Source: Candidatus Gastranaerophilales bacterium
GTDB taxonomy: Bacteria > Cyanobacteriota > Vampirovibrionia > Gastranaerophilales > Gastranaerophilaceae
Assembly (NCBI GenBank): GCA_944323735.1
Contig: CALUTO010000021.1
Coordinates: 1-35,328, forward strand
Direction: 5' to 3'
DNA: 35,328 nucleotides
Part shown: one piece after another, positions 668 to 5,920 of the stretch
How positions within the stretch are numbered: the first letter of the stretch is position 1
Layout of the letters: each line of letters begins with the position of its first letter
Program-made: the position numbers and the translations under genes
The notes under the pieces: generated by a model
Databases searched by the model: none
What the model was told of the DNA's origin: nothing
The model's input: the letters and a program-made list of their open reading frames with translations, nothing else

Positions 668-3600
668 TTATATTCCAACAGAAATTTGCTCTGGAACTTG
701 TCCTAAAAAATAATCTTCTATATAATTCCATATTTCATCACTTTTAAAATTATTTTGATAAAGATATGTTAACATAGCTACTGAAATTTTGTGTCTTTGT
801 GCAACTTTTTCAAGCAACCTATTATTATAATACTGAGGTTTTCTTATAACCTCTTCCATTGTTTTTGTTTGGTTAATATAGATATAAATTTGACTATTTA
901 CACCACCGCTTGCCTTAAAGTTAACATAGTTTAAGGCCTCTAAATAGCCTAGGGCTGTTATGATTTCTTTCGCTGTTTTTTCTCCTTTACCTTTAACAAT
1001 ATATAATAAACCGTCTTTTTCATTTGCATGTATAAACTTTTTCATATTACATAGCCAACCAATAAAGTTCTCAATAGGTCTATTAAATGTATATGATTCT
1101 ATTCCATCTTGTGTTATCCTTGGTTTCATTATTTCTGCATTCATGGTGTTATTATAATTTCTTATATAATTTTTAATTGTTGAAATTAAAATATTTGCAA
1201 TTCCTGTGGCTCTAAAAGAAGTTATATTTGCTCTTTTGCTAATATAATTAGAAATATTTTTGAATATATCTTTTTCGTTCTTATCATATTCTACTTTTAA
1301 ATATGTTCCGTCGTCTACAGATTTTCTTAAAATGTAATCTATGGCATTTTGTATCTTGGCACAAGTTTCATCTTCAATAAAATCAAGTTGAATACAAGTT
1401 ACTGGCATCATTTTATTTATATTATAATTATCTAACTCCTTGTCGGCAGTATATAGCAAAAATTTAAACTTAGGGAATGATAAGTTTTTACTATAATCCT
1501 TTTCCCATATTTTTTGCAAATTGACCACATAGATATTGCTTGTATTGTTGCATAATCTAAAATTATTAATGCCATACCTTTTTGTTAATCCATCTATAAT
1601 TTCATCCGATATTTCAAAATATCCTTGAGCAAAAAGGGTTGATGGTCGCATCATGAAAGGCGAAAAACCCATTTTTGATGTATAATCTTTTTGTATTAAT
1701 AAAAGTGCAGTTTTTACTTTTGCAATTAATTCTTCTTGAGGAGTTTCTCTTGGACCTTCAAAGATGTATGTAAAATTTTCAGCATCAACCAACATTTCAT
1801 TTCGTTTCTTAGATAAATGTGAACTTAAAAATTCTTCAGAATTCATTTTTATATTAAAAAGTTCATTAACTTTTTGGATTACCTTTATTAGCTGATATTT
1901 TTTTACTGTAGATAAACCATGCAATCTATTAATGTGCTGAAAATCGTTTCGCATGTGAGAATAAATGGCTTCTCCTTGTATTTTTGGATCTCTTGCTGCT
2001 CTGCCAATTTCTTGAACATAATCACAAACATTTCCTGTTGGAGCAAAATGACAAACGATAGCAATATCGCTTATATCTATACCCATGCCAAAAGCTTTAG
2101 TAGCAAGCATGACAAGTTTTTCTCCTGTTCCAAATAATTCTGCACTTTCTTTTTTATCTTCACCACTCATTGGTCCATAATATTTTGCTATTTGTTTTTC
2201 TTTGTCAAAAGTTTTGCAATAATTATAAAAAGATTCTATTAAAGGAATATTTGGAAAATAAATTAAAGTTTTTTTATTCATCATTATTGAACGATCAACA
2301 GTCTTTAATAGTGCTTCAAATTTATCTAATTGATATTGCCCTCGTTGCTTTTTTGTTTCCAATTCAGAAATCTTTATTTCAATATTATCACGCTTGACAT
2401 ATCCTAAATATGTTATCGGTTTTCTCATATTTAAACTGTCGAGCGTTTCTGTATACATATCTTCAATACCACCATATATAGCTGTTGCAGTAAAGGTTGC
2501 AACTATAAATGGATGTGAATCAGGATCTTGTTTTTGTTTTTTTCTAAGTTTTTTTATATAATCACCTAAATACCAATAATCCGGTCTAAATTGTTTACCC
2601 CAAGTTGTAACAATATGGGCTTCATCTATGACTATTAAACCAATTTTCCTGTCACCAATAATTTGCGATATATCACTTCTTGCAAGTAAAGATTCGGGAG
2701 ATAAATATAAAATATGACATTCTCCATCTTTAATACTTTGCATTATTTCCTCTTTTTCAACTTGCGAAATGTCAGAATTTATAGTTTTTGCACTTTTATA
2801 TGATAATTTTTCCAAATTTGAAACTTGGTCATTCATAAGACCAATTAATGGAGAAATTACAAGTGTCACTAAATTATATTTTTCTGCAAGATAAATTGCT
2901 GGAATTAAAAACATTGCTGATTTACCAGCCCCTGTTGGGGCTGTTACAAACATATCAGAGTAGTCATATTCTGGATTTTTTCTAACAGATTCTACTTGTT
3001 TTGCTAAATTGATTATAATGTCTTCTTGAGAAATTTCCTTAACTGTTTTAATGCCGTTTTTTATATCCTCATTGTCATATACTTTTAATTTTCTAAAAGA
3101 ATTGTGTCCCCAATATTGCTTTAAAATTTTTCTAAATTCAGGATTGCATTCAATGCTTTGTTCTTTTTGTTCTATTTTAAATACTTTAAAATTTTTATAT
3201 AATTCTTGTAATAAGGATATTTTTTTAATAAGAATTTCATTATCGCCTACAAAACTATCAATATTTACATTAATATTTTGCTTATTCAATATAGCATCCA
3301 AAAGATACAAATAATCCTCTGTTTCTTGAAGATATAAAATGTTTTCTTTTGGATACTCATTATTTTTTTCAATAATCTCTAACGGTTTATTGCTATCATA
3401 ATTAAATAAATTGACAATTTTTATCCTTGGATCAAAAAGCTCGGTTTCATCATTATACCTAACCCAAAATGAATTATTTATCATCTTTAAATTTGAATAT
3501 ATTTTAGTATATTTTTCTCCATCGTAAACCTGAATATCTGATACACTATCATCGGTTTCATGATCAAAAAAATCTGTTAACTGAAATTTTGTTTCAGTAG

Positions 3601-3895
3601 GTATTTTTATATTTAAAGGATAAAAATTATTAAAAATATTATTGTTTATAATATAGACATTATCATATTCATCGATTATAAATTTGTAAAAATACAAAAA
3701 TTCTTCATAGGAAATTAATCTTCTATTGGAATTGCATAAGTCCATCCAACCCTTTGTTGGTTTTTTATTAAACAATTCTTGTAAATCAATATTGTTGAAA
3801 TCTTCATTTTCAATGCCCCTATATACTACCATATTATTTGATGATAACAAGTTAGATGTTATGTCTTTTGCCTTATTTTTGATTATTTCTAACAT
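668..3895 (-). CDS. RecQ-like superfamily 2 DNA helicase, 1075 aa
   Basis: ATP-dependent helicase of the RecQ-like branch of superfamily 2. Visible motifs are Walker A APTGAGKS near residue 320, then SPLIGLMNDQ (motif Ia), DEAH near 425, TFTATA (motif III), AFGMGIDISD, and QEIGRAARD (motif VI) near 630. The first ~300 residues are an extra N-terminal region with no motif I recognise. About 400 residues follow the helicase core, ending in a short helical, HRDC-like or winged-helix-like segment; that last reading is a guess. It is far longer than housekeeping RecQ (about 600). The start is ATG at 3895, preceded by AAAAGGAG inside the sigma-factor gene, which it overlaps by 23 bases. The pair is therefore one translationally linked operon. 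Base composition is much more A+T-rich than the housekeeping genes from 7.4 kb on, suggesting transfer. The RecQ-like assignment is firm; a defence or mobile-element role is inference. Confidence 0.85.
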   Translation of the reverse strand: MLEIIKNKAKDITSNLLSSNNMVVYRGIENEDFNNIDLQELFNKKPTKGWMDLCNSNRRLISYEEFLYFYKFIIDEYDNVYIINNNIFNNFYPLNIKIPTETKFQLTDFFDHETDDSVSDIQVYDGEKYTKIYSNLKMINNSFWVRYNDETELFDPRIKIVNLFNYDSNKPLEIIEKNNEYPKENILYLQETEDYLYLLDAILNKQNINVNIDSFVGDNEILIKKISLLQELYKNFKVFKIEQKEQSIECNPEFRKILKQYWGHNSFRKLKVYDNEDIKNGIKTVKEISQEDIIINLAKQVESVRKNPEYDYSDMFVTAPTGAGKSAMFLIPAIYLAEKYNLVTLVISPLIGLMNDQVSNLEKLSYKSAKTINSDISQVEKEEIMQSIKDGECHILYLSPESLLARSDISQIIGDRKIGLIVIDEAHIVTTWGKQFRPDYWYLGDYIKKLRKKQKQDPDSHPFIVATFTATAIYGGIEDMYTETLDSLNMRKPITYLGYVKRDNIEIKISELETKKQRGQYQLDKFEALLKTVDRSIMMNKKTLIYFPNIPLIESFYNYCKTFDKEKQIAKYYGPMSGEDKKESAELFGTGEKLVMLATKAFGMGIDISDIAIVCHFAPTGNVCDYVQEIGRAARDPKIQGEAIYSHMRNDFQHINRLHGLSTVKKYQLIKVIQKVNELFNIKMNSEEFLSSHLSKKRNEMLVDAENFTYIFEGPRETPQEELIAKVKTALLLIQKDYTSKMGFSPFMMRPSTLFAQGYFEISDEIIDGLTKRYGINNFRLCNNTSNIYVVNLQKIWEKDYSKNLSFPKFKFLLYTADKELDNYNINKMMPVTCIQLDFIEDETCAKIQNAIDYILRKSVDDGTYLKVEYDKNEKDIFKNISNYISKRANITSFRATGIANILISTIKNYIRNYNNTMNAEIMKPRITQDGIESYTFNRPIENFIGWLCNMKKFIHANEKDGLLYIVKGKGEKTAKEIITALGYLEALNYVNFKASGGVNSQIYIYINQTKTMEEVIRKPQYYNNRLLEKVAQRHKISVAMLTYLYQNNFKSDEIWNYIEDYFLGQVPEQISVGI

Positions 3896-5228
3896 AATTA
3901 TCTCCTTTTATTTTTTTTATTATATTGATTATTTCATTGTAGGAAAATGAGTTTTCATTGTATGAATTTTGTGTTAAACATTCAACAATATTTTCATATA
4001 ATACATCCAAGTCGTTTGTATTTTCATTACAATTTATAACTCTTTTAGCAATTGTGTATATGTCTGGAATATATGAAACATTATTTTTTTTAAAAAAATA
4101 TTGTTTATCAAAAATTTTTGGTTCTAGCAAAGTGTAATCTAAAAAATCATCAACTTTCTTTTTTTGCAACTTAATTCTTAATTTCTTTTTTGCTATATCT
4201 TCAATTTGGCGAATTCGCTCTCTTGTTACCCCAAATATTTTGCCAATATCATTAAGAGTTCTTTCGTTTTCATTGTCATCATCCAGCCCATAGCGAAGTT
4301 TAAGAACATCTCTTTCTTTAGTGGCTAAACAACTTAAACATTCGATAACAATTTCTTTGAGTTGAATTTCAATATTATACTCTTCAGGTTTTCTTATTGG
4401 ACTTATAAAAAAATTCGCACTATTTGAAATTGTATCAAGAATGCTCATGTCTTGTTTTTCTCCAATATAAGCATCTAAATATTCAGGATTTAAATAATGT
4501 TTTTTTAGCACTATTATATCTTTGTATTTTTTTATATCTGCATCAGAAAAATTATCAAATTCATCATTAAAATTTGAAAATTGCCTACTTATTTTTTTTA
4601 TTTCTTCCCATTTGTGCACCGGTAATCTGATTATAAAACCTGTGTCCATGATTTCTCTTTGTATGGTTTGATTGACCCACCATGTAACATAAGTTAGTAA
4701 ATTATATCCTTTTGCAGAATCGAATCGTTGACAGCCCTTAATAAATCCCATTGCTGCTATTTGAAATAAATCTTCATCTTCTAATTTATGATTATAGAAA
4801 TAACTTTGTTGTTTAATTTTTTTAAATAAGTAATTTTTATTTTTGTTTATTAAAATTTGTAGTACTCGATTATCGTTTGTTTTTTGATACAATTCAGCTA
4901 AATATTCATTAGATTCATTTGAAAATCTATTTGTTTTAGTAGTGCATTTTTGAGCATTAATTAATTTTTTATTACAATTAGGATATTTATCTTTTGTAAT
5001 AACAATCGTTTTTTTGGGTACATTTTGAATATTAAATGAATCAATATAAGTATCGTCCGTACTTTTTTCGTCTACAAATCTAATTTCTAAAGAAGATAAA
5101 AAATCACATACTTCATATTGTTCTTTGAGTTCAAGGCAAGAAAAAATGTTATCAAAATCAGAATACAAAAGTTCTTTTTTGGAATTTAAATATGGTTTAA
5201 TGTTTTGTATTATCACATCTTTATTCAT
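3873..5228 (-). CDS. sigma-70 family RNA polymerase sigma factor, 451 aa
   Basis: Sigma factor that would direct core RNA polymerase to particular promoters. Region 2 lies at about residues 140-215: EDLFQIAAMGFIKG, GYNLLTYVTWWVNQTIQREI, then IRLPVH, as in primary sigmas. Region 4 lies at about 290-355: ERDVLKLRYGLDDD and the helix-turn-helix DIGKIFGVTRERIRQIE. Region 1.1 is not seen. There are instead about 100 unassigned residues at each end. In region 2.4 the Gln of the WW-x-x-Q element is kept, but the position matching E. coli RpoD T440 is Gln, which may alter -10 recognition. The ATG at 5228 is preceded by AGGA six bases upstream. The gene overlaps the helicase start and shares its strong A+T bias. 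It is not the housekeeping sigma, judged from its divergence and island setting. Its target promoters are unknown. Confidence 0.85.
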   Translation of the reverse strand: MNKDVIIQNIKPYLNSKKELLYSDFDNIFSCLELKEQYEVCDFLSSLEIRFVDEKSTDDTYIDSFNIQNVPKKTIVITKDKYPNCNKKLINAQKCTTKTNRFSNESNEYLAELYQKTNDNRVLQILINKNKNYLFKKIKQQSYFYNHKLEDEDLFQIAAMGFIKGCQRFDSAKGYNLLTYVTWWVNQTIQREIMDTGFIIRLPVHKWEEIKKISRQFSNFNDEFDNFSDADIKKYKDIIVLKKHYLNPEYLDAYIGEKQDMSILDTISNSANFFISPIRKPEEYNIEIQLKEIVIECLSCLATKERDVLKLRYGLDDDNENERTLNDIGKIFGVTRERIRQIEDIAKKKLRIKLQKKKVDDFLDYTLLEPKIFDKQYFFKKNNVSYIPDIYTIAKRVINCNENTNDLDVLYENIVECLTQNSYNENSFSYNEIINIIKKIKGDNYVRNNQK

Positions 5229-5611: not shown

Positions 5612-5648
5612 AGAATCCCTTTTTTTAAACAATATAAAAATAAAAAAA

Positions 5649-5920
<272 letters not shown>

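Follow-up and report, generated by a model that had tools for sequence, protein, structure and literature searches.

A linked sigma factor and RecQ-like helicase form a mobile two-gene cassette of scattered distribution in bacteria

Genes and domains of the cassette

The window analysed here is the complete contig C21 (CALUTO010000021.1; 35,328 bp) of the 2.06-Mb genome of a Candidatus Gastranaerophilales bacterium. At one end of this contig, two genes on the reverse strand encode a sigma-70 family factor and a RecQ-like helicase, and comparison across bacterial genomes establishes that they constitute a real two-gene cassette. An initial annotation, made from the sequence of the window, had described two genes of very low G+C content overlapping by 23 bases, namely a sigma-70-type factor extended by about 100 residues at each end and a 1075-residue RecQ-like helicase with a large unassigned N-terminal region. 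Both open reading frames were recovered as described, and the extensions of the sigma factor amount to about 100 residues at the N-terminus and 87 at the C-terminus. The pair has a G+C content of 26.2%, whereas positions 5600-35328 of the window reach 37.6%, and its third-position G+C, at 0.16-0.18, is about half the 0.30-0.40 of the other genes checked; this composition fits acquisition from elsewhere. Only 667 bp separate the end of the helicase gene from the end of the contig, and the outer boundary of the cassette lies off the contig. The features of the pair are listed below, with confidence of the AlphaFold models given as predicted local distance difference test (pLDDT).

3873..5228, minus strand: sigma-70 family factor, 451 amino acids, first gene of the cassette (Pfam Sigma70_r2 and Sigma70_r4; AlphaFold pLDDT 85; helicase-linked in 80/81 relatives)
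5064..5228, minus strand: sigma N-terminal domain, residues 1-55, conserved, probably similar to region 1.1 (Sigma70_r1_1 in 7/73; pLDDT 91-97 over residues 1-50)
4644..4799, minus strand: sigma region 2 (-10 recognition, core binding), residues 144-195 (Pfam PF04542)
4176..4340, minus strand: sigma region 4 with the -35 helix VTRERIRQIE, residues 297-351 (Pfam PF04545; alignment to RpoD)
3876..4136, minus strand: sigma C-terminal tail, residues 365-451, lineage-specific (alignment of relatives)
3873..3895, minus strand: coding overlap of 23 bp, the helicase start lying 23 bp ahead of the sigma gene end
668..3895, minus strand: RecQ-like superfamily 2 (SF2) helicase, 1075 amino acids, PADLOC family C3a193 (PDLC01089, E=1.1e-151; AlphaFold pLDDT 88)
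3164..3895, minus strand: N-terminal part of the helicase, residues 1-244 (without sequence match in Pfam or PDB; well-folded in the AlphaFold model)
1826..3163, minus strand: RecQ-type helicase core, about residues 245-690, with Walker A at 2918-2938 and DEAH at 2615-2626 (fold match to BLM; TIGR00614)
668..1825, minus strand: family-specific helicase C-terminal region (secondary structure of the AlphaFold model; no PDB sequence match)

The helicase core carries the Pfam domains DEAD and Helicase_C at residues 313-635, with motifs intact, and its predicted model superimposes on BLM (7aud_F) with a VIA-align Z of 37.7 and 2.4 A over 399 residues; matches to RECQL5, WRN and E. coli RecQ are of the same order (Z 30-38). 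Nevertheless, the protein misses the cut-offs for RecQ proper (TIGR00614, 176.9 vs 219.8 bits; TIGR01389, 193.3 vs 640.2). No RQC or HRDC domain is matched in Pfam at E 0.001, and the zinc-binding cysteine set of RecQ is not conserved, only one nearly invariant cysteine (C624) being found in 80 members of the helicase family. Outside the core, the first ~245 residues find no sequence match in Pfam or PDB (45 aligned members); the fold prediction that the initial annotation had proposed for this region yields a well-folded structure. The last ~360 residues are likewise without a PDB sequence match in a profile search, and from the model residues about 875-1075 may be winged-helix-like. In whole-model structure searches, the cores of the two proteins took up all matches.

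With a score of 73.5 against TIGR02937 (cut-off 42.9), the sigma factor belongs to the sigma-70 superfamily. In 73/73 relatives both region 2 and region 4 are retained, and region 3 scores in 61 of them, while region 1.2 is found in only two; membership of group 1 (RpoD) is not supported by the latter count, nor by the RpoD_Cterm score, which at 142 bits stays below the cut-off of 354. Seven other sigma-like matches occur in this genome, the best of which is a clear RpoD. According to the alignment with that protein, the -35 helix TRERIRQIE is identical in both, and region 2 shows some differences. Among the aligned members, only the Gastranaerophilales copies have the 87-residue C-terminal tail.

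What is more difficult is the assignment of the sigma N-terminus. The AlphaFold model and the alignment divide its ~100 residues into a conserved folded domain (about residues 1-55), modelled as helix-strand-helix-helix-strand with pLDDT >90, and a disordered linker. Pfam Sigma70_r1_1 is matched by 7/73 members, with a best E of 3.1e-4. A profile of 45 of these domains, compared by hhalign with full-length E. coli RpoD, falls on residues 7-59, i.e. on the true region 1.1, at a score that is not significant, and the same N-terminal profile finds no significant match in PDB. With reserve, we regard the domain as region-1.1-like on the grounds of these sequence comparisons.

Linkage, distribution and neighbouring genes

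A scan of 84,980 species genomes with the helicase yielded 247 relatives; the 80 best loci among them were retained. The linkage set comprises the scan loci together with plasmid matches, restricted to the main helicase family and to loci whose upstream sequence extends for 1.2 kb or more; a distant, lower-scoring branch was excluded. It includes near-identical copies (L067/L149 and L119/L148), and the sigma frame is broken in L078, L109 and L110. A sigma gene is present in 80 of the 81 main-family loci, the only exception being L084: in 69 it lies directly upstream of the helicase, in six a single nuclease-like gene stands between the two, and in five the genes are divergent. Only the helicase served to find these loci, so that their selection did not favour adjacency. 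Spacing is tight as well; among the co-directional adjacent pairs (n=65), 61 have distances of -60 to +30 bp and 26 overlap, with a median distance of 4 bp.

A draw of 300 genomes from one Bacillota class gave a similar picture. The helicase occurs in 15 of them (about 4-5%), and a sigma gene adjoins 11/11 intact main-family copies, several of whose genomes were already included in the first set, as well as one degraded copy; it is absent beside three distant copies. Hence, the tabulation of adjacency suggested by the initial annotation stands at 80/81 loci, plus 12/12 main-family members of this separate sample. In one genome, G701 (L204, L205), both cassette genes are interrupted by stops and frame breaks. 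Furthermore, helicase and sigma distances are correlated (Mantel r = 0.87 vs a maximum of 0.25 in 1000 permutations). Linked inheritance alone would yield such a value, and the correlation therefore supports co-travel of the two genes rather than contact between their products.

The hosts belong to at least three phyla and include Gastranaerophilales, many Bacillota and Mucispirillum; plasmid copies are found in E. faecium and L. plantarum. In the genome scan, the nearest relatives with both genes are Candidatus Gastranaerophilales. Yet among 146 relatives of the window genome, which is counted in, only four possess the pair; their helicases are 65-78% identical across families, and their cassettes occupy differing chromosomal sites with differing neighbours. 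The helicase is the only RecQ-family match in the window genome. Several Bacillota carry it alongside a true RecQ, several cassette hosts are without another RecQ, and most relatives have neither the cassette helicase nor any RecQ. A housekeeping RecQ was considered and is ruled out by the absence of the helicase from most relatives. The doubt, voiced from the outset, that a sigma factor and a helicase are a standard housekeeping pair was justified: though the helicase is the sole RecQ match of its genome, it is missing in 142/146.

Further contexts were noted on plasmid and viral sequences. Exiguobacterium plasmid pCXA (L067) and an E. chiriqhucha contig (L149) share a near-identical block with a divergent sigma gene, the helicase, an HNH gene and plasmid partition genes. 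Searches of viral contigs with single sequences gave no match; an alignment search of them found three distant helicases, one at a contig edge, and no sigma gene. In the IMG/VR contig L153 (7734-10916), a helicase of the family lies between phage structural genes and next to an ADP-ribosylglycohydrolase-like gene; a gene of the latter kind also lies downstream of the cassette in Selenomonas (L096).

Across the loci, the neighbours include type I restriction-modification (RM) genes, methyl-directed type II and type IV restriction endonucleases, DndF, GajB, a DRT helicase, BREX DUF6079, Schlafen AlbA_2, McrB-like and HNH genes, and Csx1 with an array of clustered regularly interspaced short palindromic repeats (CRISPR). 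Type I RM genes are neighbours in Paenibacillus, in Thermoflavimicrobium and on E. faecium pW142, where the pair directly follows the RM operon. A CRISPR array is near two loci, one with Csx1; nearly all loci are without an array within the stretch examined. In L117, the region immediately upstream of the pair (3222-4862) holds an array of 26 repeats or more together with a Csx1-like gene. Counts of N6_Mtase in 30 host genomes served as the control for enrichment: type I methylase genes number seven in 0.43 Mb of flanks against ~0.3 expected (77 in about 105 Mb), an over-representation of about 20-fold whose true size is somewhat uncertain, because Paenibacillus dominates the flank matches and these were counted with a model built from the hits themselves. 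This enrichment and the PADLOC matches among the neighbours answer the question, raised in the initial annotation, of whether the pair tends to lie near known defence genes. Of the mobile or defence module proposed there, mobility is borne out by the sporadic distribution and the plasmid copies, and so is the company of defence genes; the defence role itself is what this company may indicate.

At 14 loci the same operon contains a third gene of ~655 amino acids (in two of them only its end is visible), with a UvrD/Schlafen-type superfamily 1 (SF1) helicase domain and an N-terminal part bearing D...ExK residues. Its product is predicted to combine a PD-(D/E)XK-like nuclease with an SF1 helicase. 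The distant helicase branch is without a sigma gene, and two of its members stand beside a NERD-type gene, which suggests that the sigma factor is a regulatory addition and not part of catalysis. These two, a sister form of the cassette, are the sigma-free C3a193 helicases of L154 (5414-10721) and L202 (1429-6186), in both of which the NERD-type gene is directly downstream; it is NERD+UvrD in L154, and L202 was read from sequence. Given this arrangement in a sigma-free branch, the partnership of helicase and nuclease-like protein may be older than the association with sigma.

In the window, the cassette lies next to a tRNA-Arg gene; the initial annotation had spoken of a tRNA-Arg island and of duplicated ends:

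5648..5723, minus strand: tRNA-Arg (ACG), its 3' side towards the cassette (ARAGORN)
5705..5920, no strand assigned: 90-bp tandem array of 2.4 copies with the tRNA 5' end, not a cassette attachment site (repeat analysis; congener comparison)

Both the tRNA and the 90-bp repeats exist, and the repeats are not island ends. The array lies on the 5' side of the tRNA, away from the pair; the same array occurs in congener G003 and copies of the tRNA end in G001, each without the pair. The array is therefore real and no insertion scar of the pair, and the tRNA repeats are ruled out as attachment sites by their 5' position and their presence in relatives lacking the pair. Tandem copies of the tRNA-Arg 5' end are common to congeners (window 5705-5920; L187, L188). 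On the 3' side, congener G002 has a reverse-transcriptase-like open reading frame beside the same tRNA-Arg (L185, 5057-5566), and congener G001 has two tRNA-Arg 3' fragments (L186, 12171-12436 and 13000-13599) near a resolvase-like one. The G001 tRNA-Arg site is likely an integration hotspot in the genus, and the 3' side, where the cassette sits, looks variable among congeners.

Relation to known systems

The closest catalogued relative of the helicase is C3a193, a 'possible alternative Cas3' (PDLC01089), which it matches over nearly its full length (residues 57-1066 on model positions 52-981 of 983). The C3a series corresponds to the type III CRISPR accessory families listed by Shah et al. 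2019. However, the model covers the helicase only, there is no such entry for the sigma gene, and CRISPR arrays are rare around the loci, as noted above. PsyrTA (RqlHI) also has a RecQ-like helicase in a two-gene cassette, and the window helicase scores 165 bits to PADLOC PsyrT. The partner of PsyrT is the nucleotide-binding PsyrA, whereas that of the window helicase is a sigma factor, as in nearly all its relatives; moreover, the N- and C-terminal regions of the window helicase are family-specific. DpdF of the Dpd (7-deazaguanine) system shares the RecQ-like core (up to 207 bits), but the NCBIfam DpdF score of 134.7 is far from the 550-bit cut-off and no dpd genes were noted around the pair.

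On the side of the sigma factor, a known example is MZA (PMC9523054), a defence system in which a sigma-70 factor, MzaA, occurs together with MzaB-E. The window sigma matches MzaA in its core with 142 bits, compared with a cut-off of 800, and this match is confined to the generic sigma core. None of mzaB-E is named in the neighbourhoods scanned, for which the lists are not exhaustive and the window ends 667 bp past the helicase. The third gene, for its part, resembles C3a187 among the NERD+UvrD proteins (C3a187, Nhi, DRT NERD-helicase), being a nuclease-like/SF1 helicase in the operon at its 14 loci, and a NERD-UvrD gene stands beside the distant helicase branch; unlike them, the main-branch partner has no Pfam NERD match, and D...ExK residues alone suggest its nuclease fold. 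In the literature we found no account of the sigma/helicase pair, a weak kind of evidence given partial coverage of subscription journals. The helicase as C3a193 and a sigma factor in defence as MZA are known already; the pair as a unit is apparently undescribed.

Possible roles of the pair

We tentatively read the cassette as a mobile accessory module of two genes, most likely for defence against phages or plasmids, with the helicase as effector and the sigma factor as its dedicated regulatory subunit. The helicase would be an ATP-driven DNA-processing enzyme that translocates along invading DNA or unwinds it, in some relatives probably together with the nuclease-like/SF1-helicase partner from the same operon. 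The sigma factor would join core RNA polymerase; free sigma would probably be kept off DNA by the region-1.1-like N-terminal domain, and RpoD-like promoters would be read via the unchanged -35 helix. The cassette, and perhaps other promoters, could then be transcribed once the usual sigma is in short supply or has been inactivated, e.g. by a phage anti-sigma protein. A search for -10/-35 elements upstream of 72 sigma genes revealed no distinctive motif (8.60 vs 8.39 +/- 0.12 for shuffles). The absence of a special upstream motif and the RpoD-like -35 helix argue against a wholly private promoter, and both would fit a backup sigma that sustains expression of the cassette under a block of RpoD. 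A regulatory role is also favoured by the lack of sigma in the distant branch and by its divergent orientation in five loci.

Several observations weigh against this interpretation. The promoter scan lends no support to autoregulation, and the region-1.1 assignment of the sigma N-terminus is weak. Many loci have non-defence neighbours (permeases, phosphatases, chemotaxis genes) and no defence gene beside them, and the seven flank methylase matches are not fully independent, five of them belonging to Paenibacillus and a related genus. Finally, the nuclease-like partner is missing from most loci and from the window.

The main rival holds that sigma is a targeting partner, which would bind the helicase directly or via RNA polymerase and bring it to promoters on the incoming DNA, with the open complex as its loading site. 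Overlap and tight spacing suggest that the proteins are made together, the two families diverge in parallel, and the large family-specific parts of both proteins could bind each other; even so, we consider this role unlikely, because the divergent layout of five loci is more typical of a regulator and its target and the distant branch presumably works without sigma. An extended form, in which sigma guides a DNA-targeting immune complex – the holoenzyme would mark those promoters of the incoming DNA that are active, and the helicase, alone or joined by its nuclease-like partner, would load there and dismantle the invader – appears less likely still. The two genes could also resemble a toxin-antitoxin pair, the helicase being harmful when free, as for RecQ-like PsyrT, and restrained by sigma until infection. 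The PsyrT similarity of the core, the small and mobile two-gene format and a degraded copy that shows dispensability are in keeping with this idea, which we still judge very unlikely, as that similarity arises only through the shared helicase core, PsyrT has a different partner, and a divergent arrangement is seen in five loci.

Functions other than defence would involve the upkeep of the mobile element itself or of the cell. A part in replication, transfer or repair of the element is compatible with the plasmid copies, with recombinases nearby and with the variable 3' side of tRNA-Arg in the genus, but seems quite unlikely for a cassette that sits among defence genes and whose numerous chromosomal locations are unrelated and have no integrase, relaxase or replication gene in common. 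A role of the helicase in general stress or DNA repair, under an alternative sigma factor of its own, would explain the RecQ-type core and its presence in several hosts that have no other RecQ. Against it stand the patchy distribution, the majority of relatives, which are devoid of both helicases, and the hosts in which the cassette accompanies a true RecQ, and such a function is in our view improbable, about as much as the toxin-antitoxin arrangement.

Immune cassettes rarely include a sigma factor. With a sigma/helicase module on mobile DNA, often located in the company of defence genes, transcription initiation would be linked to defence, and two ideas would become testable: that a spare sigma factor allows escape from the take-over of polymerase by a phage, or that a sigma factor aims DNA-processing enzymes.

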